Shown: in pieces, positions 3,589 through 20,076 of the stretch
How the letters are laid out: each line of letters begins with the position of its first letter
Numbering within the stretch: position 1 is the first letter of the stretch
Source: Nitrospira sp.
GTDB taxonomy: Bacteria > Nitrospirota > Nitrospiria > Nitrospirales > Nitrospiraceae
Reading direction: 5' to 3'
Assembly: GCA_005116775.1 (NCBI GenBank)
Contig: SWDN01000003.1
Span: 325,905 to 389,904 of the forward strand
DNA length: 64,000 nt
Notes under the pieces: generated by a model
Seen by the model: the letters and a program-made list of their open reading frames with translations, nothing else
Told to the model about the DNA's origin: nothing
The model's database searches: none
Position numbers and translations under genes: made by a program

Positions 3589-5769
3589 TTAGTGTCCCAA
3601 TCTTCGCCAGGGAATCGGGCTTTTTCGTTCTTCCTCGTACTGTTTTTGGTCATGAATCTCAGAGTCTTTTTTGTCTCCCTCTTTTTTCTTGCCCGGCAGT
3701 ACCCAGTAGTCGAGATCGAACCATTCATTCGAGAGGGCTTTCACAAACCCCATTTCAGTGCTGGGCCGTTCTAGATCCTGACGGAATGCGGTGGAAAACT
3801 CGCTTCGCACATAGACGTCGAAGACGATCGGTTCGGCGAGAGACTGTCTGAACGGTGTTTGATGGAGGGTCGAGACCTTCCCTGCGATTTGAGAGATCGT
3901 CGCGTTACGGGAACCCAGATGATCGAACACATCGTAGAACCATAGCTGCGCGTGATCGTTGAACAGGCCCGCGAGGCCGCCGAAGAGATATTTTGGTGGA
4001 CCTAATATGAGCGTATCTAACGCTCCCGCATAGGTGCCGGCAACGATCCCGATTTTTGAGACGATGTCGTCGGCACCACCGCTGTCTGTATTCAGAAAAA
4101 TATGAAAGGCATTGGGGAAGCGTTGATCCACGTAGGCCTGGCCGACATTAGGGCCGGCCACCCCTAGCACTTTCTGCACGGAGTACCCGTGGTTTGCGAG
4201 GATTCGTGAGGCGCTGGCGCTCCGTTGCACGCCGCCGCTGTGACCGGAGAGGTAGAGCCGATCGCCCTGCCCTGCGTGACGCATGATGTACTCCGCCTCG
4301 TTATACCCAGGTCCATGCGAGAGATTGAGCATCGACCACAGTACATCGGTGATTGTCCCATGGCGATAGGGAGGACTATAAATGTCGTAGTCCGGGTACG
4401 CCGCTCTGGCCCATGCCGCCCACAGCCCCGTGTCTTGTCCCCATTTATCACCGCCATAGATTCCCCGTGACAGAAAAATCTTTTCGCAGACACGGTCAGG
4501 CTCTGGCGCAAAATCCCAATCCATGTACTTGGGGCCGGTATTGAACTGAAAGGCCTGGCCGACAAACGGCACTTCGCTGATGAGGTTCACCAGGCCCAGT
4601 AAAAAATAATACGAGGGCTTATGTCCGATCTCCACTTCAAGCGCATTCCATACCATTCGAATACTTTTCGCAGGGTAGTAGAGGGGGTTGTCCCGGCCAA
4701 ACAGCAATCCGGCAACGGTACTGAAGGGCATCTTGGCCAATTCGAAGACGGCATTCTTGACGCCGATGGCCACGGCAAAGGGATAGCCGGTCCAATAGAG
4801 CATGCTCCGAGTGTTGGAAAGCTCAAGGGCAGCGGTCTTCGCATTTGTGATGTCGCATTCGTACTGTGCTTTGTCTTGGTCCGGCACACCGCTCTTTATG
4901 CTGTGTGCAAGAATCGGCTGCGGCGTCGCCTCGTTGGCATAATCTAATTCGTAGCCGAGATATTCCCTCGTGATCGCCGGCTCATCTTTGAGGCTCGACT
5001 CAATATTGAGCGTATCCATGAAATAGAACCGTACCCCATAGCGAATCAGAGTATCGTCTTCATCCCAGGGAATCTCATACCCCAATACAAAAAAGTGCAC
5101 ATTGCGCATCCTCTCGGTTCGTACCTCCTTGACTCTCACGCGGAGCCGATCGGTCAGATCACCCTTATCGTCGTCCTTATACTGGTACAGATCCTTCTCG
5201 TTCGCATAGGACAGGATTTTGTACAACGGCCTGGGTTTGGTTGAGCATGCCTGCTCTGTGGTTTCAGGGTTCCCGACCCACTGTGAACGGCGATCGCACT
5301 GCCCCTCACTGACAATAAGTCCTTCGACCTCCCCCACTCGCTCGTCCGCAACAACCGGTACTTTTCGGATCAGTTCTCGAGCAAGTTTCCTCGATGTCAG
5401 ATACTCGTCAAATCGTCGCAGGTCCTGATCCGGATCTGTTGCATCGTACGCGTAAGAGGCAAGCCATTTGACCGACCCCTCGTTTAGTGGAGTGTACTTT
5501 GGGGAACAGGCGAGTACTGTGCGATGGAGCTGGCGCTCAAGCGCGATTTGGAAATTGCGAATCGTCCAGGCGCCGGCTCCCAACGGGCCGAAATCCCCTT
5601 TCAGTGTCTCATCCACCTCAGACTTCAACACCACGGTACAGCCAGGCTTCTGAACGGCGGACTCCGTTTCCAGCGCGAGATGATATGGCAGATCTGACGC
5701 GCAACCCTGCAACAAGAGACAAAGCCCCAGAATAAAAGAACCGATCCACTACATCCTTGGCATCGTCAT
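3589..5769 (-). pseudogene. Lipoprotein-type alpha/beta-hydrolase with an in-frame TAG in its signal peptide
   Basis: The natural start appears to be ATG at 5769, six bases after GGAGG, giving MTMPRM, then TAG (5751-5749), then WIGSFILGLCLLLQGC, a lipoprotein signal with lipobox LLQGC. The next usable start, TTG at 5715, would leave only four residues before that Cys and no signal peptide. Downstream the frame is open for about 708 residues. It contains a hydrophobic stretch (about 305-385, counted from 5715) and a serine-hydrolase nucleophile elbow, YLSGHSGG, with Ser at about 493. The product is probably an outer-membrane-anchored esterase or lipase-like protein of unknown substrate. It lies 71 bp after the papain-hydrolase gene in the same direction, so they are likely co-transcribed. 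The TAG could be a true nonsense mutation or a base error. Confidence 0.65.
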
Positions 5770-5840: not shown

Positions 5841-7760
5841 TTAGATCGATTTTCCCTTCATGAGTGCAATCACGCTCGTCATGGTGACTGCGTCGTCGTC
5901 GAATCCACCATGCGTCGTGCTGGTCGATTCCTTGCCTGGCGCAGCCCAGGTAGAGACGTTCGGCAAATTCTTCGATCCAATGTGGTCGTTGAAATATTTC
6001 TCCATGCCAAGTATCGGCGTCGTCTGTCCTTGTTCCAACGATTGCGATACCAAATAGAGCAGCGAGCGGCTGTAGCCGAGAATCGGCTTGCATGTTGGAT
6101 CTTTCTGCTCCATGTCGTCGGATAGATGGAACTGATTGAAGCGCTTGACCTTGCCGCTTTTGATGGCAGGGACCACGGTCGTATTGAAGAGATCGACCCG
6201 CACCGCCGGCGCCATAAAATTCACGCTTTCGAATGTCCAGCCCTGGCCCCCCAGACGGTCGACGACATGACTGTGTAGGATTGCCCCGGCTGAGTGGCCG
6301 ACAAGATGCAGTCTCACCTTGGAGAGATCGGCAAAATACGGCGATTGCTGGCAGGCTCTATAGAGCTTCATGCCTCCACTCTCAGCCGTATTGGAAATCG
6401 CGTCTGCATTCTGTTTCATCTCCCTCCAGATCGCCGTTCCCGGTGTCGTCAAAAGTTTTTCGAGCCGTTCGTTCCACCAACTTTTGACGCCGTCTAAGAA
6501 TCCGCCGGCCGGACGGGTCTGACCCGCTAAGACATCTTCGAGACGCCCCTTGAGTGTGGCCCAGAGGTCTGTTTCCCACATCAGGAAGATCGGAAAAATT
6601 CGCTGTTCATACAATGCCGGAATCCATTTCGCCGCTGTTTCTCCCGCCGTATCCTCAGAGGTGAGACCTCCGTGCGCGTAAATGGCGATATCCAGAGGAT
6701 CGTTCTTTCCCAAATTCCATGCGGTCCGTGCCTTACCGAGATGGTGCGTAACGAGCGCATCGATGTCGGACTCCTGGGTGCGAAAATCGCCCGTATTGCT
6801 GAGCCGTCCGTTGTTCTCCATGTTGATGATGAACGGGCTGATCTCCCGCCTACGCAAGGAAGACTCTCCAGCGAGCTGCACTTTACCGGCTTTCATACGC
6901 AATGTCGGCGACTGCGCGATCGTGAGATGCAGGTCCGTTACCACGCCCAGCTGCGCGACCCAACAATCCATCGCATGGTCGAGCCAATCTTCATACCGCA
7001 ATATGGCGCGGCCTTTTGTGCCCCACTTCGTCCCCCACGAGTTATGCACGATGAATCCATCTTGGGTATAGCCGACGATCGCAAAGGCATGGCCACCGTC
7101 GCTGGGGTTTGCCTTCCGGTGTGGAATCGTCCAATAGCCGCCTTTGGCCTGTGATCTGTTTGAGGATTCGCCATCCCAGCCGGAGTGACAGACCGCGCTG
7201 ACATAGAGAATGCCGATCTCGTTGAGTGCGACATGCATATCCGTAACCGACCGCGTGTCGACGCGGTAATAGGCCCCGAGTGGGCGCTGAACGGCATCGA
7301 GCCACCAGTCGTCTGCCGATTTTTTCACTGGGTCTGTCGGCATCTGTTGCGAGGTCCACAGCCGATCCGAGCAGGCGCCATGCTTGTACCAACCCTTCAT
7401 GGCGCCGCGCAGACTCGACCCGGTATCGACGTCTGGATCACCGGGAAACTCGTCATAGCGCCGAGCCATCGAATACATCATGAATGGGGACACGCAGCAA
7501 TCCAGCCGCTTGCGTTTCGCGGTATGCTGCAAGTGATACACGACACTTGCCAAGGCGAATCCTGTACAGGCATTGGTCTGTTTCTGATTGAGCACAGGAA
7601 TATTAGTCTTTGGAACCACCGTCAACCCTGGAACCACAGCGACCGGCGGCATATAGACCCTATCGCGAAGATCGAGACGATCGGGAACCACATTACGTAT
7701 GAGAACCCTTGAAGCCCTTGGCTTCTTCCCTCTTTCAGCAATGATCTTTTTCCTCTCCAT
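5841..7760 (-). CDS. Papain-family (C1A) cysteine protease fused to an alpha/beta-hydrolase
   Basis: 639 residues, ATG preceded by AAGGAG. The first half is a C1-type peptidase with a complete catalytic set: oxyanion Gln61 and Cys65 in LNQKQTNACTGFA, His224 in DGGHAFAIVGY, and Asn240 in VHNSWGTKWG. The second half (about 330-639) has YAHGGL (about 361-366, probable oxyanion loop) and the nucleophile elbow LVGHSAGA with Ser490. The very basic N-terminus (RKKIIAERGKKPRASR) is not a signal peptide, so export is unclear. The protein thus carries two hydrolytic centres of different chemistry. The downstream gene encodes a second GHSxG hydrolase with a lipoprotein signal. The protease domain may process or regulate the hydrolase; the target is unknown. 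Confidence 0.8.
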   Translation of the reverse strand: MERKKIIAERGKKPRASRVLIRNVVPDRLDLRDRVYMPPVAVVPGLTVVPKTNIPVLNQKQTNACTGFALASVVYHLQHTAKRKRLDCCVSPFMMYSMARRYDEFPGDPDVDTGSSLRGAMKGWYKHGACSDRLWTSQQMPTDPVKKSADDWWLDAVQRPLGAYYRVDTRSVTDMHVALNEIGILYVSAVCHSGWDGESSNRSQAKGGYWTIPHRKANPSDGGHAFAIVGYTQDGFIVHNSWGTKWGTKGRAILRYEDWLDHAMDCWVAQLGVVTDLHLTIAQSPTLRMKAGKVQLAGESSLRRREISPFIINMENNGRLSNTGDFRTQESDIDALVTHHLGKARTAWNLGKNDPLDIAIYAHGGLTSEDTAGETAAKWIPALYEQRIFPIFLMWETDLWATLKGRLEDVLAGQTRPAGGFLDGVKSWWNERLEKLLTTPGTAIWREMKQNADAISNTAESGGMKLYRACQQSPYFADLSKVRLHLVGHSAGAILHSHVVDRLGGQGWTFESVNFMAPAVRVDLFNTTVVPAIKSGKVKRFNQFHLSDDMEQKDPTCKPILGYSRSLLYLVSQSLEQGQTTPILGMEKYFNDHIGSKNLPNVSTWAAPGKESTSTTHGGFDDDAVTMTSVIALMKGKSI

Positions 7761-8118
7761 AAGGACTCCTTTCAGGATGTGGCCAGATGGCGGTTCGCAT
7801 TCTCAGCCGATTCACTCACTCCGTCAAGCATCGATCAGACAGATCGCCTTACAAATACCAGCATTTCGCAATACTGAATGTCCGTCGAAAGCACACTCCG
7901 GCGAAGTCCCCCTCATGAGATATGACGGCATGGCTTTTCATACCTTCTGCACATGCGAGACAACTCAGCATCGTTTGACTTCCCCTTCCTCACACTCATA
8001 GAATCTTGCCGTAAAATCATGCGTGGTACGCGAAAACGTAACGGGTTCGGCGCATGAACAGTGGACGATTCTAGGTTCCAACAGGTGGCGTTGAGTAGTC
8101 ACTTAGGGAGGTGATGTT
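7761..8118. other. Divergent intergenic region with promoter and leader
   Basis: About 358 bp between the divergently transcribed protease-hydrolase gene and the guanidinase-like gene. The only signal I can name is the TTGACT/TAGAAT pair at 7975-8004. It would give a leader of about 108 nt before the TTG start at 8119. No riboswitch fold was recognised in that leader. Confidence 0.5.
7975..8004 (+). promoter_or_regulatory. Sigma-70-type promoter
   Basis: TTGACT (7975-7980), an 18-bp spacer and TAGAAT (7999-8004). Most of the block, including the first half of the spacer, also occurs in front of dnaE at 11652-11681. Transcription would begin near 8011 and read into the ureohydrolase gene. Confidence 0.6.
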
Positions 8119-8843
8119 TTGGCTAAAGAGCGGAAATACCGAGGCGAGGTTCCCCTGCATGACAACTATGGTCCAGAAGCGAAATATGCTGTCGAGGCAG
8201 AAGCGCTTTTGCCCACTACGAAGTACGAGGAAGAAGTGGCTCGGGGTCTGGAGTTAGGCGTGGAGTCGCTCAGAATCTCCTTGGCGGCAAGAAGCTCGGC
8301 ATCATTCACTTCGATCGGCATGTGGACACGCAAGAGACCGATCTCGACGAACGCATGCATACCACTCCTTGGTTCCACGCCACCAACATGCCGAACGTTC
8401 CATCTAAAAACCTCGTGCAGATCGGAATCGGCGGCTGGCAGGCGCCACGGCCCGGCGTGAAGTCAGGGCGTGAACGCCAAACCACCATCATGACCGTCAC
8501 CGATTGCGTGGAGATGGGGATTGAGACTGCGGCAAAACGAGCGCTCGAAGTGGCCTGGGACGGAGTCGATGCGGTCTGGCTCAGTTTCGATGTTGATTGT
8601 TTAGACGCCGCGTTCGTGCCGGGAACCGGCTGGCCTGAACCAGGAGGGTTCTTACCGCGCGAAGTGCTGAAGTTCCTTCAGATCATCGCGGACAGCAAGC
8701 CGATCGCTGGGATGGAAATTGTGGAGTGCTCGCCTCCCTACGACGCAGCTGAAATCACCAGCCTCATTTCTACTCGTGTGATCTGCGACGTCTTGGCGTG
8801 CCAGGTGCGATCCGGCCACTTGCCGAATCGGAAAAAGCGGTGA
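8119..8843 (+). pseudogene. Guanidinase/agmatinase-type ureohydrolase, broken by internal deletion and frame change
   Basis: Translation would begin at TTG 8119 after AGGGAGGTG. The first frame gives a normal-looking N-terminus (AKERKYRGEVPLHDNYG...) to about 8260. The rest of the enzyme continues two frames over, from about 8270 to 8843, with LGGKKLGIIHFDRHVD and FDVDCLDAAFVPGTGWPEPG, the two Mn- or Ni-binding motifs of the arginase family (DxHxD and DxDxxD). About 130 residues that normally lie between these parts, including the first metal-binding GGDH motif, are absent. The C-terminal half most resembles the guanidine hydrolase branch (Sll1077-like) as I remember it, and guanidine use is known in comammox Nitrospira. 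The frame change means no full-length product is made from this sequence. Confidence 0.75.
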
Positions 8844-8862
8844 GCACACGGTGAACGATCCG

Positions 8863-10302
8863 CTAGCATCTGCGGACTTTGTCTGCCAAAACATACAGGG
8901 TCGTGACGCCTAGAATACTGCCCAAGACCAACGGGACAGCCCAGAGCTGCCACCAGGGCGCATCGGGAGAGACGGCGTAGACGCGAGGCCAGGCAATATT
9001 CACAAATTCAAATAGCGACCAGAGGAAGGCCGCTACATTGATCGCCAATCCCCACCCTCCTAGCTTCAACTCACCCAGCGCTGGGTTCCAACGGCCCGTG
9101 AGCCGAGTATAGAGCCCGACCCCGGTCGTCATCGCGAACATGGCGTACAGCCCGCCTGTGCCGAAGGCGATTATTGTGGCTACTGCTCCATCGTTCAGGC
9201 CGAACAGCAGTCCGAGCCCCGCCAACAGCACCACGCAGATCACTGCATTGCGTGGAATCTTGGAGGCCGTCACCCAGCTGAACATCGAAGGCATGTTGCC
9301 CTCGCGAGCCATGGAGTACACAATGCGCGAGGTGTATTGCACCATGGAGGCCCCGCACGCCAGGAACGCGACCATGACAATCGCCAGAAAGGGCGTTTCT
9401 GCCCAGGCGCCAAAGCTACTGACAATCACAGGTGTGACGGGATCGGACGTCGCGCTGGTATGCACCAGGGCTTCTCGATTGAAGCTCAAGGTCAGAGCGG
9501 CGGAGTTAAAGAGCACCACCCCTCCCACCATGCAGAGAGATAAAAAGATCGCGCGCGGGACCATCCGCTTGGGATTATGGGTTTCTTCCGCAATGGTAGA
9601 GCAGGCATCGAACCCGATGAAGGCCCAACCAGAAACGGCGAGCGCCGCTAAGAAAGCGGCCGTTTGGCTGGGCGCAGTCCCCGTGCCGAGATGCTGAAAT
9701 AGTTCTGAAAATGAATGCTGCCTGAAAAAGAAAAACAGCAGCAGCGCCACGCCGAACGACCCGACGATTTCCGCATAGACACCCAGTGAAATCAACAGTT
9801 TAAACACATTCACGTGAGCCAGATTGAGGAGCGTACAGAGCAATAAAAATATGGCGCCCCATAGGACGAAGGTGAGTCCTCCTCCACTCTCGAATCCAAA
9901 GAACAGCGCAAGCCACACCCCACCGGTATAGGCAGTCGTGGTGAGCATGGCGATCGTGGAACTGACGTAAATGACCCCGGCATATTTTCCCGTGGTGGCG
10001 CCTCCGAGCTGCCGTGCCCATTTGTACGCACCCCCCGCAATCGGAATCTGAGAGGATAGCTCAGCGTAGACCGTCGCCACCAACATCTGCATCACCAGAC
10101 AGAGCGCCAGGGCCCCAAACCAACCGCCTCCCGTCACTATCGTCTGCACGCCGATGATGGCATAGAGTCCCGCCACCGGTGAAACGGTGGCGAAGCCAAT
10201 GGTCAGGCTATTCCAGAGGGTCAGGCTGCGGTTGAGTGTCCCGTCTACAGGCTGGGAGGTTGCATGAGGAAGAATGTCCGGACTCTCCTTCGTTGCCGTC
10301 AC
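8863..10302 (-). CDS. APC-superfamily amino acid/amine permease
   Basis: 479 residues with about 12-13 hydrophobic helices. The first helices carry the APC pattern TIGFATVSPVAGLYAI and ELSSQIPIAGGAYKWARQLGG, and AFIGFDACSTIAEETHNPKR is the typical helix-6 region of amino acid and polyamine transporters. The gene converges on the ureohydrolase with 19 bp between stops. That pairing suggests uptake of a nitrogenous substrate (guanidine, agmatine or a related amine) for the hydrolase. Substrate cannot be read from sequence. The gene looks intact. Confidence 0.8.
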   Translation of the reverse strand: MTATKESPDILPHATSQPVDGTLNRSLTLWNSLTIGFATVSPVAGLYAIIGVQTIVTGGGWFGALALCLVMQMLVATVYAELSSQIPIAGGAYKWARQLGGATTGKYAGVIYVSSTIAMLTTTAYTGGVWLALFFGFESGGGLTFVLWGAIFLLLCTLLNLAHVNVFKLLISLGVYAEIVGSFGVALLLFFFFRQHSFSELFQHLGTGTAPSQTAAFLAALAVSGWAFIGFDACSTIAEETHNPKRMVPRAIFLSLCMVGGVVLFNSAALTLSFNREALVHTSATSDPVTPVIVSSFGAWAETPFLAIVMVAFLACGASMVQYTSRIVYSMAREGNMPSMFSWVTASKIPRNAVICVVLLAGLGLLFGLNDGAVATIIAFGTGGLYAMFAMTTGVGLYTRLTGRWNPALGELKLGGWGLAINVAAFLWSLFEFVNIAWPRVYAVSPDAPWWQLWAVPLVLGSILGVTTLYVLADKVRRC

Positions 10303-10633: not shown

Positions 10634-11272
10634 TCATGAAAGCCTCTCCGGGAACTGCTTCACCAGAGCCTCTGTTATCGTATCTGCAATGACGTAGACA
10701 TGTTCTCGCATCATTTTCCAGGTTTCATCTAGACGCGCATATTCCTTCTTCTTGTACTGGTTGATTTGGAGCACATGGTGCGCGCCATGCGCGGCAATCA
10801 GCCCCCGAACGGTGGATTCCGGCAGATAGGGATTGATTCCGCTCAAGAATGTGCCGAAGTCATTGGCATTGGACGCCAAGCGTGCCAACGCAGCATCCTG
10901 CTGACTCTTATTCCCTGCAACGGTAGCCTCCGAGTATTCCCTCACCGCGCTAATATTGATGTCCAGCAGGCTCAAGAACTTCTGCGACCGAGCTTCACCA
11001 TAGAATGGTGTCAGCATACTCGCGATCTGTTTCGTATTCGCGTCGACTTCCTTCTTGACGACATTGCGCTCCGCCGGACTGCTCGTCGAGTTGCTCAATA
11101 CAGCGTGCTGCACCCAATAGATGTGCCCAAGCCAGAGATCGCGGTGGGTCTGTTTCATCTCCGCCACACGGGTCGGATTCGCAGTTTCGGCTGCATGAGT
11201 GTCAAAGTCATAGCCCACCATGCCAGCGAGCACAAGTACCAACACTGCCATAGGTTGAAATGTCTTGCTCAT
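10634..11272 (-). CDS. Exported helical protein of unknown function
   Basis: About 212 residues from the ATG at 11272, which follows GGAAAG; alternatives at 11284 and 11317 would add up to 15 residues. Residues about 7-27 are a Sec signal peptide (VLVLVLAGMVGYDFDTHA). The mature part is predicted all-helical, with conserved-looking TRVAEMKQTHRDLWLGHIYWVQHAV and GLIAAHGAHHVLQINQYKK, both His-rich. No CxxCH heme site is present. It may be a periplasmic four-helix-bundle protein that binds a metal or ligand through those His residues. I do not recognise the family. Confidence 0.65.
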   Translation of the reverse strand: MSKTFQPMAVLVLVLAGMVGYDFDTHAAETANPTRVAEMKQTHRDLWLGHIYWVQHAVLSNSTSSPAERNVVKKEVDANTKQIASMLTPFYGEARSQKFLSLLDINISAVREYSEATVAGNKSQQDAALARLASNANDFGTFLSGINPYLPESTVRGLIAAHGAHHVLQINQYKKKEYARLDETWKMMREHVYVIADTITEALVKQFPERLS

Positions 11273-11317
11273 AGAGCTTTCCATCACGGCGTGTTCCAAG
11301 GCGATACTGAACTCCAT

Positions 11318-11582
11318 TCGTTCAAAATCACTGAGAATGCATTCGATGTCACGCAGAGATACAGTACACTATCCACAGTCGAATATGAAGTGTTCTGAGT
11401 GGATGATCAAGAATTCTTCATGATCCAAACGGGTTCCGGCACGCGCTCCTCGACGGTCTCGCCCCTCGTGCGTGAGTCAGCCACGGCATTGCAGAGGAAT
11501 CTTCCTGAATACGAGGAGCTAGAACTAAGAAAATGGTCTGCCATGGAAATTTACAGATGACGGAGGCGACATTTTAGGCATA
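11318..11582. other. Intergenic region upstream of the GC-rich repeat
   Basis: No gene seen. It separates the divergently transcribed exported-protein gene from the repeat and promoter in front of dnaE. Confidence 0.4.
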
Positions 11583-11650
11583 GTGCGCCGAGACGCGCTC
11601 TTCTCCCTCGCGAGCACAGGAGATCAACGGGCTGCCCTCCCCTCTCCTCG
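11583..11650 (+). repeat. GC-rich dispersed repeat, copy 1 (degenerate)
   Basis: Contains CGCGAGCACAGGAGA followed by an (A/T)CAACGGGCTGCCCTCCCCTC-like tail, clearly related to 18166-18226 and more distantly to 28475-28535. It ends directly at the -35 box of the dnaE promoter. Confidence 0.5.
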
Positions 11651-11651
11651 T

Positions 11652-11681
11652 TTGACTTCCCCTTCCCTGCCCTCCTAGAAT
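11652..11681 (+). promoter_or_regulatory. Sigma-70-type promoter predicting a leaderless dnaE mRNA
   Basis: TTGACT (11652-11657), 18-bp spacer, TAGAAT (11676-11681). The start codon ATG is at 11688, seven bases after the -10 box and about where transcription should begin. There is no room for a Shine-Dalgarno sequence. Confidence 0.65.
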
Positions 11682-11687
11682 CCCGCC

Positions 11688-14039
11688 ATGGCGTCGTCCT
11701 TTGTCCATCTCCATCTCCATACTCAATTCAGTCTGCTCGACGGCGCGAATCAAATCGAGCCGCTGATCCAGCAGATTAAATCGTTCAATCAGCCGGCTGT
11801 CGCAATGACCGACCATGGGAACATGTTCGGGGCCATCGAGTTCTACCGCAAAGCCAAAGAAGCAGGCATCAAACCGATCATTGGCTGCGAAGCCTACATG
11901 GCTCCTGGTAGCCGCTTGGCCGCCAAAGACAGCGGTCTCGCCCACAACGACTATTATCACCTAATCCTCTTGGCTCGAAATCTAACTGGCTATCAGAATC
12001 TGATCAAGCTAGTGAGCAAAGCATACCTTGAAGGGTTCTATTACAAGCCACGAATGGATAAGGAAATTCTTAAAGATCACCACGAGGGTCTGATTGCCCT
12101 ATCAGGCTGCTTGAGTGGCGAGATTCCCTACCTTATCGGCCAGAAGGATATGGATGGCGCGATGGCTGTGGCCGGAGAGTTTCAGGAAATATTCGGGAAG
12201 GAACACTTCTACCTCGAAGTGCAGGCGAATGGGTTGGACCATCAACGAGTCGCGAACAGCGGTCTGCTTGAGATTGCCAAGAAAATGGAGATTCCTCTGG
12301 TTGGTACGAATGATTGCCACTATCTTAAGAAAGAAGATTTCCGTCCACACGAACTGATGCTGTGCCTGCAAACAGGCAAGACGATCAGCGATCCCAATCG
12401 CATGAAGTTCGACACAGATCAGCTCTATGTGAAATCGACGGAAGAAGTCACAGCCGCATTCATTGAGTTCCCCAATGCGGTCACCAATACCTGTCGGATT
12501 GCGGACAACTGCGACCTTCAACTGGCGCTGAACAAAACACATCTCCCACAATATAAAGTTCCAGAGGGATTCACCAGAGAAACCTATCTGGAGCGCCTGG
12601 CGTTGGACGGATTGGCGGCTCGGCTCAAGGAGAGACCCAGTCAGATTCTGCCGGCTACTTATGAGCTGCGTCTGCGTGAAGAGCTGTCGATCATTTGCGC
12701 GATGGGATTCGCCGGCTACTTTCTTATCGTATGGGACATCATCAAGTTTGCCCGCTCCCGCAACATTCCAGTCGGCCCAGGCCGAGGCTCTGCCGCCGGG
12801 AGTCTCGTCGCCTATGCGCTACGCATCACGGATCTCGATCCCCTCGTCTACACGCTCTTGTTCGAGCGGTTCCTCAATCCTGAGCGCGTGTCCCTCCCCG
12901 ATATCGATATGGACTTCTGCATGGAACGCCGGGGCGAGGTCATCAACTACGTGGTCGACAAGTACGGTAAGGACCACGTCGCCCAGATTATTACGTTCGG
13001 GACGCTCGGAGCGAAGGCTGCGATCCGGGACGTCGGCCGCGTGCTGGAGATTCCCTATGCTGAAGTCGATCGCGTGGCCAAGCTCGTCCCGAATCAGCTC
13101 AACATCACGCTCCAGCAGGCGCTCGATCAAGAACAGAAACTACGCGATCTCGTCGAGACCGATACACGGGTGAAAGAATTGATGAGCATCGCCCGTTCTC
13201 TCGAAGGACTGGCTCGCCACGCCTCAACTCACGCCGCCGGCGTCGTGATTTCAGAAGGGCCGCTTACGGACCATGTGCCGCTCTACAAAGGAGCCAACGA
13301 CGAAATCGTCACCCAATACTCGATGGGAGACGTCGAAAAGATCGGCGATCGCGCTATCGTCGGAGGCTTTGCCCGATTCAACGACCGGTCGATCATGGTC
13401 ATCGGCCATCAAAAAGGTAAGACCCTCAAAGAACGGATGCAACGAAACTTCGGCATGCCGAACCCAGAAGGCTATCGAAAAGCTCTGCGACTCATGAAGA
13501 TGGCCGAGAAGTTTGGACGCCCGATCGTGACCTTTATCGATACACCGGGTGCCTACCCAGGCATCGGTGCAGAAGAGCGCGGCCAAGCTGAAGCCATTGC
13601 CCGCAATCTGTTTGTCATGTCCCGACTCGCAGTGCCGATCATTTCCATCGTCATCGGCGAAGGCGGCAGCGGAGGAGCGCTGGCATTGGGCGTCTCAGAT
13701 CGCGTCCTCATGCTGGAGCACGGAGTCTATTCGGTGATTTCTCCGGAAGGGTGCGCTGCCATCCTGTGGGACGATCCAGCCAAAGTTCCCGATGCCGCCG
13801 CCGCACTGAAAATGACGGCGAAAGATCTGGTCGACCTCCATATCGTGGATGAAGTGATTCCCGAACCGCTCGGCGGCGCCCATCGAGACCTCAATGCCAT
13901 CACCGATCGAGTCGCCAAATCTCTCAGCAATCAACTTTCTCAGCTCAACGACCTCTCCCTCCCTGAATTACTGGCTCAACGAGATCAGAAGTACCGATCC
14001 ATCGGAGCTGTGGACGGGTTGGCCGCTATTCCTCAGTAA
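11688..14039 (+). CDS. In-frame chimera: DnaE N-terminal half joined to AccA C-terminal two-thirds
   Basis: 783 residues. Residues 1 to about 553 are DNA polymerase III alpha: PHP domain with [13 protein letters not shown] and HGNMFG, the polymerase motif [10 protein letters not shown], and catalytic Asp405 and Asp407 in PDIDMDF. At codon 553 (near 13344) the sequence passes without a break into acetyl-CoA carboxylase carboxyltransferase alpha: [61 protein letters not shown], ending near [10 protein letters not shown]. The cut falls just before the KxDFLGL segment that carries the third catalytic Asp of DnaE. It removes the rest of the polymerase and about the first 100 residues of AccA. Neither activity is expected. 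The likely ancestor is adjacent dnaE and accA genes with about 2 kb lost between them. Confidence 0.9.
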
Positions 14040-14079: not shown

Positions 14080-15309
14080 TCAGCCTCTCCCGCGCTTGGT
14101 GAACCAATCCACTGCCCCAAGGCCGGCGGCGCGGCCAGCGGCGAAACAGGCAGTCAATAGGTAGCCTCCCGTCGGCGATTCCCAATCCAACATCTCGCCG
14201 GCACAGAACACACCTGGTAGACGGCGGATCATCAACTGTGCGTCAAGCGCTTCGAACAACACTCCTCCGGCCGTACTGATCGCTTCCTTCAACGGACGAG
14301 GCGCTATCAGTTTCACCGGCAAGGATTTAATCGCAATAGCCAATCGAGCCGGGTCTGCAAAGTCATCTTTTGAAATCACTTCACGAAGCAACCCTGCCTT
14401 AACACCTTCGATATTGGCCTGCCGCTGAAGATGCGCTGCCATCGTGCGCTTGCTGCGTGGACGCGATAAATCGTGAGTCAGGCGAGGGATATTGCGGTCT
14501 GGGGCCAGGTCGAGCCGCAACGTCGCCGAGCCATTCGCCAGGATCTCATTGCGAAGCGCGGCGGATACCGTGTAGATCACCCCGCCTTCTACACCGGTTT
14601 CTGTGATGACACACTCTCCTGGATGCCAGGACTCGGCGCCGGTATGACTCCGTAGCACGACGGCCATAGACTTCACCGGATGCCCGGCAAACTTCATCCG
14701 GAAATGCTCGCTCCAGCCGACATCGAAACCACAGTTCGCCGGTTGCAATGGGGCGATCCGAACCCCGCGCTCTGCCAGCAACGGCACCCAGGACGCATCG
14801 GAGCCGAGTTTCGGCCAACTGCCTCCACCGAGCGCGAGCACCACTACATCGGCCTGGATAGATCGATTTCCCTCCGGCGTGGTAAAGCGCAGAGCCCCCT
14901 TCTCGTCCCAGCCAATCCACCGGTGTCTGACATGGAATTGGACGCCGGCCCTCCGCAATGCGCGGAGCCACGAACGCAGCAACGGCGCGGCCTTTAAATC
15001 CTTAGGAAATACGCGACCGGAAGTGCCCACAAATGTCTCAATGCCGAATCCACGAGCCCAAGCCTTGAGCGCGTCAGGTCCGAACGTCGCAATGAGCGGC
15101 GCGATCTGCGCCCGCCGTGCCCCATAACGCGAGAGAAATTTCTCAGACGGTTCTGAGTGCGTAAGATTCAGGCCGCCTTTCCCTGCCAGGAGAAACTTGC
15201 GACCGACCGATGCCATGGCGTCGTAGAGATCGACCTGCGCGCCGGCAGCGCGTGCCACTTCTGCGGCCATGAGTCCGGCCGGTCCTCCACCGACAATGAC
15301 AATCTTCAT
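14080..15309 (-). CDS. BaiN/HI0933-type FAD-dependent oxidoreductase
   Basis: 409 residues. The N-terminus MKIVIVGGGPAGLMAAEVA is a dinucleotide-binding GxGxxG site followed by an acidic residue ending strand 2 (QVDLYD). VGRKFLLAGKGGLNLTHSEP is the signature of the HI0933/TIGR03862 flavoprotein family. The C-terminal FAD motif is VFCAGEMLDWESPTGGYLLT. The family is widespread, often near RNA or cell-wall genes, with no settled physiological reaction. The gene is intact and convergent with the preceding gene. Confidence 0.8.
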   Translation of the reverse strand: MKIVIVGGGPAGLMAAEVARAAGAQVDLYDAMASVGRKFLLAGKGGLNLTHSEPSEKFLSRYGARRAQIAPLIATFGPDALKAWARGFGIETFVGTSGRVFPKDLKAAPLLRSWLRALRRAGVQFHVRHRWIGWDEKGALRFTTPEGNRSIQADVVVLALGGGSWPKLGSDASWVPLLAERGVRIAPLQPANCGFDVGWSEHFRMKFAGHPVKSMAVVLRSHTGAESWHPGECVITETGVEGGVIYTVSAALRNEILANGSATLRLDLAPDRNIPRLTHDLSRPRSKRTMAAHLQRQANIEGVKAGLLREVISKDDFADPARLAIAIKSLPVKLIAPRPLKEAISTAGGVLFEALDAQLMIRRLPGVFCAGEMLDWESPTGGYLLTACFAAGRAAGLGAVDWFTKRGRG

Positions 15310-15461
15310 CTGTATCCTGATAAATGTTGGCTGGATAGTGAGCGGGCAAGAGATCAGGCCAAACGTCGCAGAACCCTACACGCAGAGCTGAAATAGGTCA
15401 AGCGCTGGAGTGCGCAACACAAGATTTCACAACTCGGAACGAGCTATACTCTCGTGCAACA

Positions 15462-15776
15462 ATGGATGAACAAGAACCTCTACAAGTCATTGAACTTCGA
15501 ATCAGTTACCGCTACGCGACCGCACACCCCTGGGTGATCCAGGCCGTTGGAGGATTTTTATCGGCCTATTTCATGGAGTATCCAGGATTTCGAGTGCAAC
15601 GATACATGGAGGAATTAGAGTCCGGTACGCACTTATGGATCTGTGAGATACCGCCCAACATGAAAGTTCTCAGGCTTCTGAAGCGACTGAAGGAAGATAT
15701 TCCCCCATGCCTCACCCAGCAAATCGCCACCGATCCACCAGCGCGGCCACGGTATCTCATCGATTGCCCTGAATAA
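15462..15776 (+). CDS. Conserved-looking small hypothetical protein
   Basis: 104 residues, no signal peptide or membrane helix, with alternating strand- and helix-like segments (PLQVIELRISYRYATAHPW; HLWICEIPPNMKVLRLLKRL). It is accepted as real because it is the only good frame in the gap, has a protein-like composition, and is followed within 5 bp by a 3'-end repeat, as other genes here are. I do not recognise it. Confidence 0.55.
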   Translation: MDEQEPLQVIELRISYRYATAHPWVIQAVGGFLSAYFMEYPGFRVQRYMEELESGTHLWICEIPPNMKVLRLLKRLKEDIPPCLTQQIATDPPARPRYLIDCPE

Positions 15777-15780
15777 GACA

Positions 15781-15863
15781 GGTTGATCTCGTTTATTTGG
15801 TTGATTTGGTTCATCTGGTTAGATTCACTCAATCAAACTAACGAGGCAAACCAGATAGACTGG
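15781..15863. repeat. TTTGGTT-type 3'-end hairpin repeat, copy 1
   Basis: Left arm of about four degenerate 9-mers (TTTGGTTGA, TTTGGTTCA, TCTGGTTAG) and a partly complementary right arm (AATCAAAC, GCAAACCAGATAGAC). It lies between the convergent ends of the small hypothetical gene and galE and could act as a bidirectional terminator. Confidence 0.7.
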
Positions 15864-15888
15864 AGATCAATATGATGGTTGCAGGGGA

Positions 15889-16908
15889 TCAGCTCTTGAA
15901 GCCGTGAGGGTTCCTACTCTGCCAGCGCCAGGTGTCCGCGCACATCGCTTCGATTCCACGCTCCGCACGCCAGTCCAATAATTCAAACGCCCGTTGTGGG
16001 TCGGCATAGCATGAAGCCACGTCACCGGGACGCCTGGGTGCAACCTTGTAAGGCACTGCCCGCCCGCTTGCTTGCTCAAATGCCCTCACAATATCCAAGA
16101 CGCTATACCCTATGCCCGTGCCTAGATTCACGGTCAAACATTCGGCTCTCTCCTGCATTCCTTCCAGAGCCTTTAGTGCTTTGAGGTGCCCTAGAGCCAG
16201 ATCCACGACATGAATATAATCCCGCACTCCCGTCCCGTCCGAGGTGGAGTAATCGTTGCCCCATACATTCAGACAAGCTCGCCGCCCCACAGCAACCTGA
16301 GCCACGACAGGCAATAAATTATTCGGGATACCCTGAGGGTCCTCCCCGATCAAACCGCTGATATGAGCGCCTGCCGGATTGAAATACCGCAAAATGCCGA
16401 TCTTCCATGAGGGGTCGCTGCGGTGCAGATCGCGCAAGATCTCCTCAATCATCAACTTCGTTTGGCCATAGGGATTCGTAGCAGAGAGTGGATGGTCTTC
16501 GGTCAGCGGCAGCCTGATCGGATCGCCGTAGACGGTGGCGGAGGAGCTGAACACCAGAGTGTTCACTCCGCATTCCTTCATCGCTTCGAGCAAACGCAAC
16601 GTGCCGACCACGTTGTTGTCATAATAGGCCAGCGGTTGCGCCACCGACTCCCCCACAGCCTTGAGGCCGGCGAAGTGAATCACCGCACTGGCCCCGCTCT
16701 CGCGCAAGGCTGCGACCAAGACCGCACGGTCGCGAATGTCACCCTGGATAAACGGCACCCTCTTCCCTGTAATGCGCTCCACCCGCGCGATAACTTCGGG
16801 ATGACTATTGCTCAAGTTATCGAACACCGTGACGTCATACCCTGCCGCAAGCAGCTCCACGCAGGTATGCGACCCGATATAACCGGCGCCGCCGGTGACA
16901 AAAATCAT
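15889..16908 (-). CDS. galE: UDP-glucose 4-epimerase
   Basis: 339 residues, full length for the family. The N-terminal GGAGYIGSHTCVELLAAGYDV binds NAD. Ser in VFSSSATVYG and the YxxxK pair in NPYGQTKLMIEE form the short-chain dehydrogenase catalytic set. YFNPAGAH and RDYIHVVDLALGHL are typical of GalE. It interconverts UDP-glucose and UDP-galactose, feeding LPS and exopolysaccharide sugars. It stands alone, with 3'-end repeats on both sides. Confidence 0.93.
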   Translation of the reverse strand: MIFVTGGAGYIGSHTCVELLAAGYDVTVFDNLSNSHPEVIARVERITGKRVPFIQGDIRDRAVLVAALRESGASAVIHFAGLKAVGESVAQPLAYYDNNVVGTLRLLEAMKECGVNTLVFSSSATVYGDPIRLPLTEDHPLSATNPYGQTKLMIEEILRDLHRSDPSWKIGILRYFNPAGAHISGLIGEDPQGIPNNLLPVVAQVAVGRRACLNVWGNDYSTSDGTGVRDYIHVVDLALGHLKALKALEGMQERAECLTVNLGTGIGYSVLDIVRAFEQASGRAVPYKVAPRRPGDVASCYADPQRAFELLDWRAERGIEAMCADTWRWQSRNPHGFKS

Positions 16909-16983
16909 GTGTCCTTGCCTCAGTGAGAGATGACCGCAGCCTATCCAGCTGAATCAGCAACGTCAAGGAATGAACGTGAACCG

Positions 16984-17035
16984 TGTATTTGGTTTATCTG
17001 GTTAGCTTCGCTCAGCCAAACAAACCGAATAACGT
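16984..17035. repeat. TTTGGTT-type 3'-end repeat, copy 2 (short)
   Basis: TATTTGGTTTATCTGGTTAGC pairs with GCCAAACAAACCGAATAAC across a short loop. It begins 25 bp beyond the stop of the DUF3422 gene (minus strand) and lies upstream of galE. Confidence 0.65.
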
Positions 17036-17059
17036 TTTTCCTATTAGGCTTGAGGCTTC

Positions 17060-18073
17060 TCAGATACTGGGGGGTATGGCTTCGCTGGAGAATTTCTTGT
17101 GGAGAAGTTTCCGCCCAATAATCGTAATCCCCAATGCAAGGCCGATCGAGAATGGAACGAACAATGCGGCGGCAATATCCGCATCGCGCAGCCATCCCAT
17201 TGCATGAAGACCCTTGAAAATATAGGCCATGAGCCCGCTGAGATAGTAAGCGATCACGATAACTGACAATCCTTCGACCGTGTACTGGAGGATGGCTTGG
17301 CTCTTCGTTGTCTTATCGACGCTCATCAAGAGCGTCAGGTTCTGAGATTGCAACATGAGATCGACACGGGCGCGAATAATAGAGATCGTTCCTTCAAACC
17401 CGCTACGCAGTGTCTCCATTCGCTTCAGGAGTTGTTGATAGCCCTCCGCGACCCCAGTGATCCCACTGAGGACATACTCGGATATGGGGCGATACAGAGG
17501 AAGCGGCCGTTCGTCGAGCGATGCCAGTGTCCGATGCACAATCTTGTCATAGGGGATCGAGGCAGACAGTTCGAAGTGCAATCGGCCGGACAGCCGAGTG
17601 GTTTTGAGCAGGTCCTGCGTCAGCCCATTGAGCCAGCGCTGGAGAGTTAGGGAATCGGCATGACCAATGTGTTCGCTGATAATTTCACGCTGCTTCAAGT
17701 GTACCTGCTCAAACTTGTACGCTTGATCGACCGCAGCCGAAAACAACGGCTTTTGCATGAGCAACAAATGGTAGTAGGTTTCGATCCGGACAATGGCATC
17801 GACAATATCTTTCAAGTGAGACCTGCTGGACATGCCTGACCCGACACTGACCCAATAGCGCTCGCGCTCATGCTCATCCGGTGTAAAGCTGGTGACCAGC
17901 GAGGTTTCCTCATCGAGAATCCGGCTGCCATAGAGGATCGGACCGGGAAACTTCCGGCTAAACGCCTCACTGGCCGGCAAGGGCTCAGCCATCAGTACGA
18001 TATCGACCAGCGACAGGCTACGTCGTTCTGCAGATGGCGTCAACTCGCCGGGGAGTGGAACTCCAATTGAGGA
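17060..18073 (-). pseudogene. DUF3422 membrane protein, 5' end missing
   Basis: Recognisable DUF3422 sequence runs from about 18073 to the stop. It starts inside the family's middle region (PLPGELTPSAERRSLSL), continues through the RIETYYHLLLM helix and the long coiled coil, and ends with the two closing membrane helices (VEGLSVIVIAYYLSGLMAYIF and AALFVPFSIGLALGITIIG). About 110 residues that normally precede this are absent. The frame stays open to 18379, but that extension resembles nothing in the family and runs antisense into prfC. I therefore read the gene as having lost its front at about 18.07 kb. Function of the family is unknown. Confidence 0.65.
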
Positions 18074-18142
18074 GCAATGCTTCACCTCCCCCGTAAATGC
18101 CCTTCTCCAGGCGAGGCCGTTGGGGGTGGTCTCCACTGCGCG

Positions 18143-18235
18143 CGTCCAACGAGGGCCTTCCGAGACCGCGCGTTGCGCGAGCACAGGAGACCAACAGGCT
18201 ACCCTCCTCTCCCCTTCCTGTAGTTTTCTCCTCTG
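18143..18235 (+). repeat. GC-rich dispersed repeat, copy 2
   Basis: Core CCGCGCGTTGCGCGAGCAC is shared exactly with 28475-28495. The following AGGAGACCAACAGGCTACC matches 11615-11635 closely. It sits between the broken DUF3422 gene and prfC. Confidence 0.6.
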
Positions 18236-18305
18236 CCAGGTGTTAAAACATACCTCCGATACCCCATCCGGTGACTCGTATAGAAGTATAAAAGAAGGAA
18301 CGTCC

Positions 18306-19931
18306 ATGTCTTTGCCGATTGAAAAGTCGTCGTCCGATGAGTTGGCGCGAGAAGTCGCCAGACGACGCACCTTTGCCATTATTTCGCACCCAGACGCAGG
18401 AAAAACTACGCTGACCGAGAAGCTTCTCCTCTACGCCGGCGCAGTGCACCTGGCCGGAGCGGTGCATGCGCGGTCCAATCAGCGTGCGTCGAAGTCGGAT
18501 TGGATGGAATTGGAACAGGCGCGCGGAATTTCGATTACTTCTACCGCGCTCCAGTTCGATTATCAGGGTGTGCGGGTCAATCTGCTCGATACACCAGGCC
18601 ACCAGGACTTCAGCGAAGACACCTACCGCACCCTCATGGCCGTCGACAGCGCAGTGATGGTCCTGGACTGCGCCAAAGGCATTGAGCCTCAAACCAAGAA
18701 ACTCTTCGCCGTCTGCCGCAAACGCAACATTCCGATTATGACCTTCATCAATAAAATGGATTTGCCGGGGCGCCATCCCTTCGACCTGATGGAGGAAATC
18801 GAACAGACCTTAGGTATGACAGCGGTCCCGTTCAATTGGCCGATCGGGGAAGGGTCTGGATTTCAAGGATTGTACGATCTGCAAGATCCTCAAGTCCTCT
18901 TCTTCCAGAAAACCTTGCACAATCAGCGGCGGGCGCCGATGCGTGTAGAAACGTTTCCTCATCCAAGCCTGGCCGAGACGCTCGGAGAAGCCTATGGCCC
19001 GCTGCAAGAGGAGATCGCATTGCTGACCGGCGCGGGCACGAAGTTCGATCACGACCGCTTTCTCGCTGGACAACTCACCCCGGTTTTCTTTGGAAGCGCC
19101 CTGACGAACTTCGGGGTCGAACCGTTCTTAAACGGGTTTCTCAGACTTGCACCCCCGCCAGGACCACGCATGAGCTCAGAGGGTCCGGTACAACCGACAG
19201 ACGAGAAGTTCTCCGGCTTTGTCTTCAAAATTCAGGCGAACATGGATCCACAACACCGTGATCGGATGGCATTTTTACGTATCGTCTCCGGTCGATTTGA
19301 GAAGGATATGATGGTCCATCATGCGCGCCTGGATCGAAAGATCCGAATGACGCGACCACACCGGCTCTTCGGCCGTGATCGAGAAACGATTGAGGAGGCC
19401 TACCCGGGTGACGTCGTCGGACTGGTGAACCCCGGCCTCTTTGCCATCGGCGATACGCTCTGCTCTGATACGCCTCGCTTCTTCGATGCAATTCCGCTTT
19501 TCCCCCCTGAATGCTTCGGGGTACTTCGAAGCCAAGACCTCGCCAAGCAGAAGCAATTCCAAAAGGGACTCCAGCAACTCGAAGAAGAAGGAGTCATGCA
19601 GGTGTTCTATTCACCGGATCATGTTCGTCGAGAACCGATCTTAGCCGCGGTGGGAGAACTGCAGTTCGATGTCGTCGCCTCGCGCCTCGAAACAGAATAT
19701 GGTGTCAAGACTACTGTTGAGCGGATGCCCTTTGTTCTCGCCCGCTGGGTGACCGGTGACCCAGACGTGATCGCCAGGATCTACTGGCCGCAGGACACGC
19801 GCCGGCTCGTAGACAAGGATGGCAGGATGGTGATGCTCTTCGGTTCCGAACGGCTGCTCGCGTACTGCGCGAAAGAATATGCATCCCTCAAGTTTCAGTT
19901 GCGTGAGGAAGTTGGAACAACAGAAAGCTAA
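18306..19931 (+). CDS. prfC: Peptide chain release factor 3
   Basis: About 541 residues from the ATG at 18306, preceded by AGAAGGA; an upstream extension of the frame lacks family similarity and crosses the repeat. GTPase motifs are intact: P-loop SHPDAGKTTLTEKLL, switch I around ARGISITST, DTPGHQDFSEDTYR and NKMD. The C-terminal RF3 domain is present (VGELQFDVVASRLETEYG). It is a class II release factor that recycles RF1 and RF2 from the ribosome using GTP. The gene is complete and appears monocistronic, ending before a 3'-end repeat. Confidence 0.95.
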   Translation: MSLPIEKSSSDELAREVARRRTFAIISHPDAGKTTLTEKLLLYAGAVHLAGAVHARSNQRASKSDWMELEQARGISITSTALQFDYQGVRVNLLDTPGHQDFSEDTYRTLMAVDSAVMVLDCAKGIEPQTKKLFAVCRKRNIPIMTFINKMDLPGRHPFDLMEEIEQTLGMTAVPFNWPIGEGSGFQGLYDLQDPQVLFFQKTLHNQRRAPMRVETFPHPSLAETLGEAYGPLQEEIALLTGAGTKFDHDRFLAGQLTPVFFGSALTNFGVEPFLNGFLRLAPPPGPRMSSEGPVQPTDEKFSGFVFKIQANMDPQHRDRMAFLRIVSGRFEKDMMVHHARLDRKIRMTRPHRLFGRDRETIEEAYPGDVVGLVNPGLFAIGDTLCSDTPRFFDAIPLFPPECFGVLRSQDLAKQKQFQKGLQQLEEEGVMQVFYSPDHVRREPILAAVGELQFDVVASRLETEYGVKTTVERMPFVLARWVTGDPDVIARIYWPQDTRRLVDKDGRMVMLFGSERLLAYCAKEYASLKFQLREEVGTTES

Positions 19932-19980
19932 TTGGCACAACCGTCCTACCGTTCCTCTTCACTCCGCGACACATCAATAG

Positions 19981-20076
19981 GTCGTTCGTTTCATTGATCT
20001 AGTTTGTTTGGTTTATCTGCTTAGTCTGGTTCAACCAAATAGACGAGACAAACCAAACAGACCAGCACGACCAACC
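19981..20076. repeat. TTTGGTT-type 3'-end repeat, copy 3
   Basis: Left arm TGATCTAGTTTGTTTGG plus TTTATCTGCTTAG; right arm CAACCAAATAGACGAGAC plus AAACCAAACAGACC. It starts 50 bp after the prfC stop. Confidence 0.7.

Follow-up and report, generated by a model that had tools for sequence, protein, structure and literature searches.

Genes and features of the locus

The window, by which we denote the whole stretch of 64,000 nucleotides of a Nitrospira sp. contig that was analysed, encodes on its reverse strand a protein of 639 amino acids that we call P1 (5841-7760). The open reading frame (ORF) is intact, with an ATG start and no internal stops. The host genome is a 70%-complete metagenome-assembled genome (MAG) with a single copy of P1. 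Around P1 the window encodes P2, an arginase-family protein, an amino acid permease and an OmpA/BON protein, and among the neighbour genes checked no wall hydrolase or caspase adjoins P1.

Features of the P1 locus. Coordinates are positions in the window and (-) denotes the reverse strand. Residue numbers refer to P1. The basis of each assignment is given in parentheses.
5841..7760 (-): P1, fusion of a predicted xylellain-type C1A protease and a predicted alpha/beta-hydrolase, 639 aa (ORF, Pfam, phmmer, AlphaFold2, Foldseek, VIA-align)
6945..7691 (-): peptidase domain, residues 24-272 (phmmer, Foldseek and VIA-align against xylellain)
7659..7688 (-): N-terminal motif VPDRLDLRDR, residues 25-34 (alignment with xylellain's N-terminal segment)
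7584..7586 (-): oxyanion Gln59 (invariant in the alignment of relatives)
7566..7568 (-): predicted catalytic Cys65 (invariant in relatives)
7089..7091 (-): predicted catalytic His224 (invariant in relatives)
7041..7043 (-): predicted catalytic Asn240 (invariant in relatives)
5844..6872 (-): alpha/beta-hydrolase domain, residues 297-639, with a YAHGG oxyanion loop at 361-365 (Pfam scores, separate model, fold search)
6291..6293 (-): nucleophile Ser490 in GHSAG (conserved in relatives)
5910..5912 (-): catalytic-type His617 in THGGFDDD (conserved in relatives)
3589..5769 (-): P2, GHSGG hydrolase-like protein with a lipoprotein-type leader (ORF, motif, alignment; the longest ORF runs from a TTG at 5715)
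5749..5751 (-): in-frame TAG, codon 7 of the P2 leader (the relative L030 has a Gln codon there)

The AlphaFold2 model of full-length P1 has a pLDDT of 85.8 and a pTM of 0.82. Since full-length relatives with 31-86% identity are found in several phyla, chance can be ruled out as the source of the fusion. Our literature search, mostly limited to open-access papers, returned no description of a papain-hydrolase fusion. P1 represents a real and conserved family of protease-hydrolase fusions that is undescribed in the literature searched. Neither P1 nor P2 matches any of the PADLOC anti-phage defence models; the caspase-bearing relatives described below match the PADLOC caspase model.

The protease half

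The Pfam family Peptidase_C1 scores 21.1 bits on P1, barely above its cut-off of 20.7. The best solved relative is xylellain (PDB 3ois), which is found by sequence (phmmer 4.9e-12) as well as by fold (Foldseek 5.6e-15; VIA-align Z 28.0 and rmsd 3.8 over 241 residues). Gln59, Cys65, His224 and Asn240 are all invariant, in 78/78 relatives. The initial annotation had listed Gln61, Cys65, His224 and Asn240 as the C1A catalytic set; the last three hold, but the true oxyanion glutamine is Gln59, which lies six residues before Cys65, whereas Gln61 is variable among relatives. The catalytic set, the fold and sequence match and the N-terminal segment are all present, and by these the protease half is assigned to papain family C1A, xylellain type.

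The N-terminal motif is as invariant as the catalytic residues: D27, D30, R32 and D33 are kept in all 77 relatives that have a letter there. In the structure of xylellain the N-terminal segment reportedly acts as a block on the active site, and nucleotide binding is said to influence activity. Because a segment of this kind is invariant in the family, latency is the natural guess for P1.

The hydrolase half

The matches listed by the first fold search all fell on the protease half, and the hydrolase half was therefore folded alone, which gave a model with a pLDDT of 89.3 and a pTM of 0.89. Its best VIA-align Z is 13.4, with many alpha/beta-hydrolases above 11, and its first Foldseek match is the DDHD domain of Nir2 (E 2.6e-4). 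No Pfam family exceeds its cut-off on this half (Abhydrolase_3 reaches 14.3 against 25 bits, and DUF900 has no match), and the PDB profile search gave only matches with E > 1; DUF900 matches 19 of 32 relatives weakly, the best with E 1.1e-4. In the alignment of the hydrolase domain Ser490 and His617 are each kept in 71/74 members, and conservation is strong at every one of the five YAHGG loop positions. With its nucleophile elbow and late histidine, the modelled C-terminal half of P1 fits the alpha/beta-hydrolase superfamily. The predicted catalytic acid is either Asp548 or Glu551. The initial annotation, which had described a single protein combining a papain-like protease with a GHSAG hydrolase and had pointed out the YAHGG oxyanion loop and Ser490, is borne out by the intact ORF, the fold and the residues conserved in relatives.

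Three members have lost the serine (L080, L081 and L231). In two of these, L081 and L231, a gene combining a GDSL-lipase and a caspase adjoins, and a Tle1-type phospholipase gene adjoins the relative L229. The serine losses beside GDSL-lipase and caspase, together with Tle1 beside L229, are consistent with a lipase role and indirectly favour a lipid as the putative target.

P2 and its relation to P1

Searches of Pfam and NCBIfam returned no match for P2, and the PDB gave none that was convincing. Its leader is hydrophobic and ends in QGC, and its likely start is the ATG at 5769, which is followed by the TAG at 5749-5751. Three readings of P2 in the window follow: the gene is broken, it starts at the inner TTG and lacks most of the leader, or the stop comes from a base error in the assembly. 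The initial annotation of this next gene as a GHSxG hydrolase with a lipoprotein signal is right as regards the motif (GHSGG) and the type of leader, although the leader is interrupted here. A common origin of P2 and the C-terminal half of P1 was also considered and is unsupported beyond the surroundings of GHSxG (profile comparison, probability 8%).

Two further irregularities were seen nearby. At 11688-14039 (+) DnaE residues 1-553 are followed in a single ORF by AccA residues 84-320. The two are separate genes in relatives (L032), and the host genome has no other DnaE match. The joined ORF is most likely an assembly deletion in the MAG, and, lying 6 kb from P2, it shows a disturbance of assembly or genome in the vicinity. 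The arginase-family gene at 8119-8843 (+) is apparently split into overlapping frames (8119-8460 and 8322-8843), and in relatives such as L030 it is a single ORF of 382 aa.

One reading takes P1 and P2 together as a Nitrospira-specific envelope effector made of two genes. The genes are indeed adjacent in the window, in G197/L030 and in L027, and 2.7 kb apart in G248/L032, which makes four Nitrospira assemblies with both. However, among 295 Nitrospirota genomes P1 is found in 23, a count that takes in a few protease-only matches, and P2 in 4, so that most P1 carriers do not have P2, and no P2 homologue was found near P1 outside Nitrospira. P2 also occurs without P1 in G009, and the host genome has a second P2 copy on another contig, again without P1 (L104:1231-3198, corresponding to G000:C13:21293-23137; 47% identical). 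In addition, the P2 leader is interrupted in the window. A functional unit was rejected on this distribution (23/295 against 4/295, with each gene also found alone), and we regard it as very unlikely. In a few Nitrospira P2 accompanies P1 as a lineage-specific partner, and the pair is not a conserved unit; the adjacency raised in the initial annotation, or a spacing within 3 kb, was seen in these four assemblies.

Distribution of the P1 family

The nearest named relatives of P1 are Nitrospira MAGs. The fusion as such is found in Nitrospirota, Pseudomonadota, Acidobacteriota, Rokubacteria and Bacteroidota and on plasmids, with full-length relatives in Nitrospira, Gallionella and other Pseudomonadota, Acidobacteriota, Rokubacteria, Ignavibacteria, Xanthocytophaga and Pseudomonas; the plasmids are those of rhizobia and Eleftheria. 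Family matches, which include some single-domain matches, were found in 16 of 398 sampled Pseudomonadota genomes and 8 of 199 Acidobacteriota genomes. P1 of the window is 72-73% identical to the Gallionella copies and 36% identical to the copy of N. moscoviensis, and because of this difference the gene has very probably crossed phyla. By its distribution, which includes plasmid copies, the fusion is old and mobile.

A phage origin was considered and rejected: the phage records give matches only to the xylellain-like protease, and none spans the fusion. One contig classed as viral (L114) carries a full-length P1 relative at 7824-10217, as well as an ORF at 1884-2996 that looks integrase-like by eye. 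This single copy is insufficient to call P1 a phage gene.

Partners of the P1-family hydrolase

Whole ORFs of distant relatives were read and their partner domains were then confirmed with Pfam. GH19 is joined to C1 and the hydrolase in one protein in L059, L196/L220 and L200/L224, and a PF11860 muramidase is joined to them in L195/L219 (E 2.5e-61). In L205, L206, L215 and L217 one protein combines Amidase_2, the P1-family hydrolase and a caspase. These proteins represent, as judged by their domains, a sister architecture in which a caspase stands in place of the papain domain.

Similar enzymes are encoded by adjacent genes: GH19 in L037 and L041, an amidase in L074, CHAP in L079 and L081, and in L231 an M15 domain within the GDSL-caspase protein of the next gene. 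Caspase genes adjoin in L049, L081, L231 and L232 and lie near in L076. A caspase gene is paired with the hydrolase in the relatives L229, L230, L238, L240 and L232, and in L232 it directly follows the P1-family hydrolase. The families among 41 close same-strand neighbours include caspases, M15, SLT and Tle1. The neighbour set was called by a simple ORF picker. As a small control we used 34 distant genes of the same loci; the 25 families listed for it include no caspase, wall hydrolase or lipase.

In the tree of the hydrolase domain (334 columns) only about 14 of the 74 members carry a wall-hydrolase partner, and the fusions and adjacencies fall on at least six separate branches. As the tree is a single FastTree run with midpoint rooting, we read this as recruitment several times and not as an exact number. 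Peptidoglycan hydrolases and caspases are the recurring partners of the P1-family hydrolase, and the gene content of the family suggests a strong genomic signature of envelope destruction.

Other genes were also seen near members of the family. Haem peroxidase and/or cytochrome P450 genes lie beside or near L074, L078, L080 and L228, which suggests fatty-acid oxidation chemistry. FGE/SUMF1-type genes lie near two P1 relatives (L222:2894-4006 and L081:5961-8006), a theme common to caspase conflict systems.

These data bear on a reading of P1 as a regulated processing enzyme, in which the protease would mature or switch the attached hydrolase on an envelope or storage ester and no killing would be involved. 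In most relatives protease and hydrolase are permanently joined, activation of a paired enzyme by a protease is proven for pro-nucleases (PMC12799240), and the haem peroxidase or P450 genes hint at lipid chemistry. Nevertheless, this reading does not account for why unrelated peptidoglycan hydrolases and caspases were recruited again and again, nor for the very patchy distribution across phyla, with closer copies in Gallionella than in N. moscoviensis. We therefore consider it unlikely.

Secretion and contractile systems

A scan of N-terminal hydrophobicity found no clear signal peptide in P1, in the wall-hydrolase partners or in the fused forms. Within the first 45 residues hydrophobicity peaks at 0.7 in P1 and at 2.2 in the P2 leader, and a few partners are borderline with 1.5-1.8. 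P1 could also be a nutritional or housekeeping exoenzyme, and a content of protease, esterase and wall hydrolase would suit a scavenger of dead cells as well. However, neither the family nor the fused wall-hydrolase forms have a signal-peptide-like N-terminus, and the distribution is rare and mobile, which makes this reading extremely improbable.

A signal-less protein may instead be cargo: P1 would then be a toxin that a contractile injection system (eCIS, tailocin or T6SS) delivers into a competitor, where it digests envelope and proteins. This candidate looked strong from two loci: in L041 the genes for P1, an endolysin-like GH19, tail sheath and tail tube stand in a row, and in L039 P1 adjoins the sheath gene. 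In G009 a sheath ORF precedes the P2 homologue by about 1.9 kb, and one of the eCIS-associated toxins for which cytotoxicity has been reported, EAT17, is an alpha/beta-hydrolase (PMC11297309). Yet cargo failed as a general answer in the genome-level tests. In Nitrospirota the sheath family PF17482 does not track P1 (6/23 carriers against 53/272 non-carriers, Fisher p 0.42), and in the genus Nitrospira five out of six P1 carriers lack it, namely the host genome (70% complete) and four others. T6SS VipB is found in 1/17 carriers against 1/20 non-carriers and in none of the window's genus. Moreover, no immunity-like neighbour recurs at the P1-family loci examined. As a reading of the family as a whole, cargo seems improbable to us; P1 may still serve as contractile cargo in the Nitrosomonadales clade of L039 and L041, the only clade in which we met such a link.

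Some further clusters were observed. Minimal clusters at L107:13255-17744 and L109:2531-5911 have a tail sheath (in L107 also a tube and GH19), with other tail genes not obvious, and a P1 relative is adjacent. In another genome of the Nitrospira family (L105) a contractile injection cluster (14381-20000) has a stand-alone xylellain-like protease (10924-11694) about 2.7 kb upstream.

Proposed function

Our preferred reading, to which we give a probability of roughly 0.45, is that P1 is a cytosolic, latent, multi-headed hydrolase for breaking down a cell, that is, for triggered self-lysis from inside. The conserved N-terminal segment would probably keep the papain-type protease inactive, as it reportedly does in xylellain, and the alpha/beta-hydrolase would probably attack ester-linked envelope material, most likely membrane lipid. 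Once freed from the N-terminal latch, P1 would cut proteins and envelope esters, and in many relatives an added peptidoglycan hydrolase, either fused or encoded by the next gene, would finish lysis, so that a protease, a lipase-like enzyme and a wall cutter act together. Such a set, once triggered, could dismantle the producing cell from inside as programmed lysis or as a conflict response.

The reading of P1 as a self-lysis enzyme rests on the relatives, because the Nitrospira locus offers no trigger, sensor or conserved neighbour. A point against it is that signal-less wall hydrolases would equally suit an injected weapon. The initial annotation had suggested a secreted antagonistic effector pair as one possibility; the antagonistic or destructive part comes close to our reading, while secretion does not agree with the N-terminus, nor a pair with the distribution.

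We also put forward, tentatively and with some doubt, a wider proposal, in which P1 would be the papain-type branch of an unrecognised one-chain lysis family. Its members would combine a latent cysteine protease (papain or caspase), a dedicated alpha/beta-hydrolase and interchangeable peptidoglycan hydrolases, with the N-terminal latch, possibly nucleotide-sensitive, as the trigger. If this were true, bacteria would carry a self-contained lysis tool, one polypeptide against protein, lipid and cell wall, and papain-type proteases would join caspases as partners of the P1-family hydrolase. It would also tie scattered 'C1 family peptidase' annotations of soil and water bacteria and rhizobial plasmids to one function and provide a simple system for how a latent bacterial cysteine protease gets unlocked.

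Comparison with known systems

Xylellain, the C1A peptidase of Xylella fastidiosa (PDB 3ois), resembles P1 in fold (Z 28), catalytic set and PDxxDxRD motif, but it consists of the protease alone (about 290 aa), to which P1 adds the hydrolase domain. The PGAP1-type eCIS toxin EAT17 shares the alpha/beta-hydrolase, which serves there as a toxin; it is linked to eCIS, whereas P1 does not track contractile systems (PMC11297309). The protease-activated nucleases of Hachiman, AVAST and canu (PMC12799240) likewise represent a protease with a second destructive enzyme, repeatedly acquired. Their partner is an MBL-fold nuclease and their activation by cleavage is proven, while such activation would be hypothetical for P1.

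Closer in content are the metacaspases fused to Amidase_2, one of them also with a GDSL lipase and termed 'a highly destructive weapon' (PMC3501461). That survey lists four amidase fusions, of metacaspases only. Like the P1 family, these fusions bring protease, amidase and lipase into one protein, but in the P1 family the middle enzyme is an alpha/beta-hydrolase, and the family further includes papain-type versions that carry GH19 or a muramidase.

Caspases paired with alpha/beta-hydrolases are a theme documented for bacterial conflict systems (PMC7159879). The VMAP and GAP1-N1 systems described there pair a cysteine protease with an alpha/beta-hydrolase as P1 does, and the order of hydrolase then caspase in L232 is similar. 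P1 differs in having a papain-type protease in a single chain, and no MoxR, vWA or VMAP genes were noticed among the selected neighbours scanned. Because the window locus has no caspase, with P2, the arginase-family gene, the permease and OmpA/BON as neighbours, we describe P1 as a protein that may work like these systems and do not file it as a member. By analogy, P1 is best read as a papain-type counterpart of the known caspase-hydrolase conflict modules.
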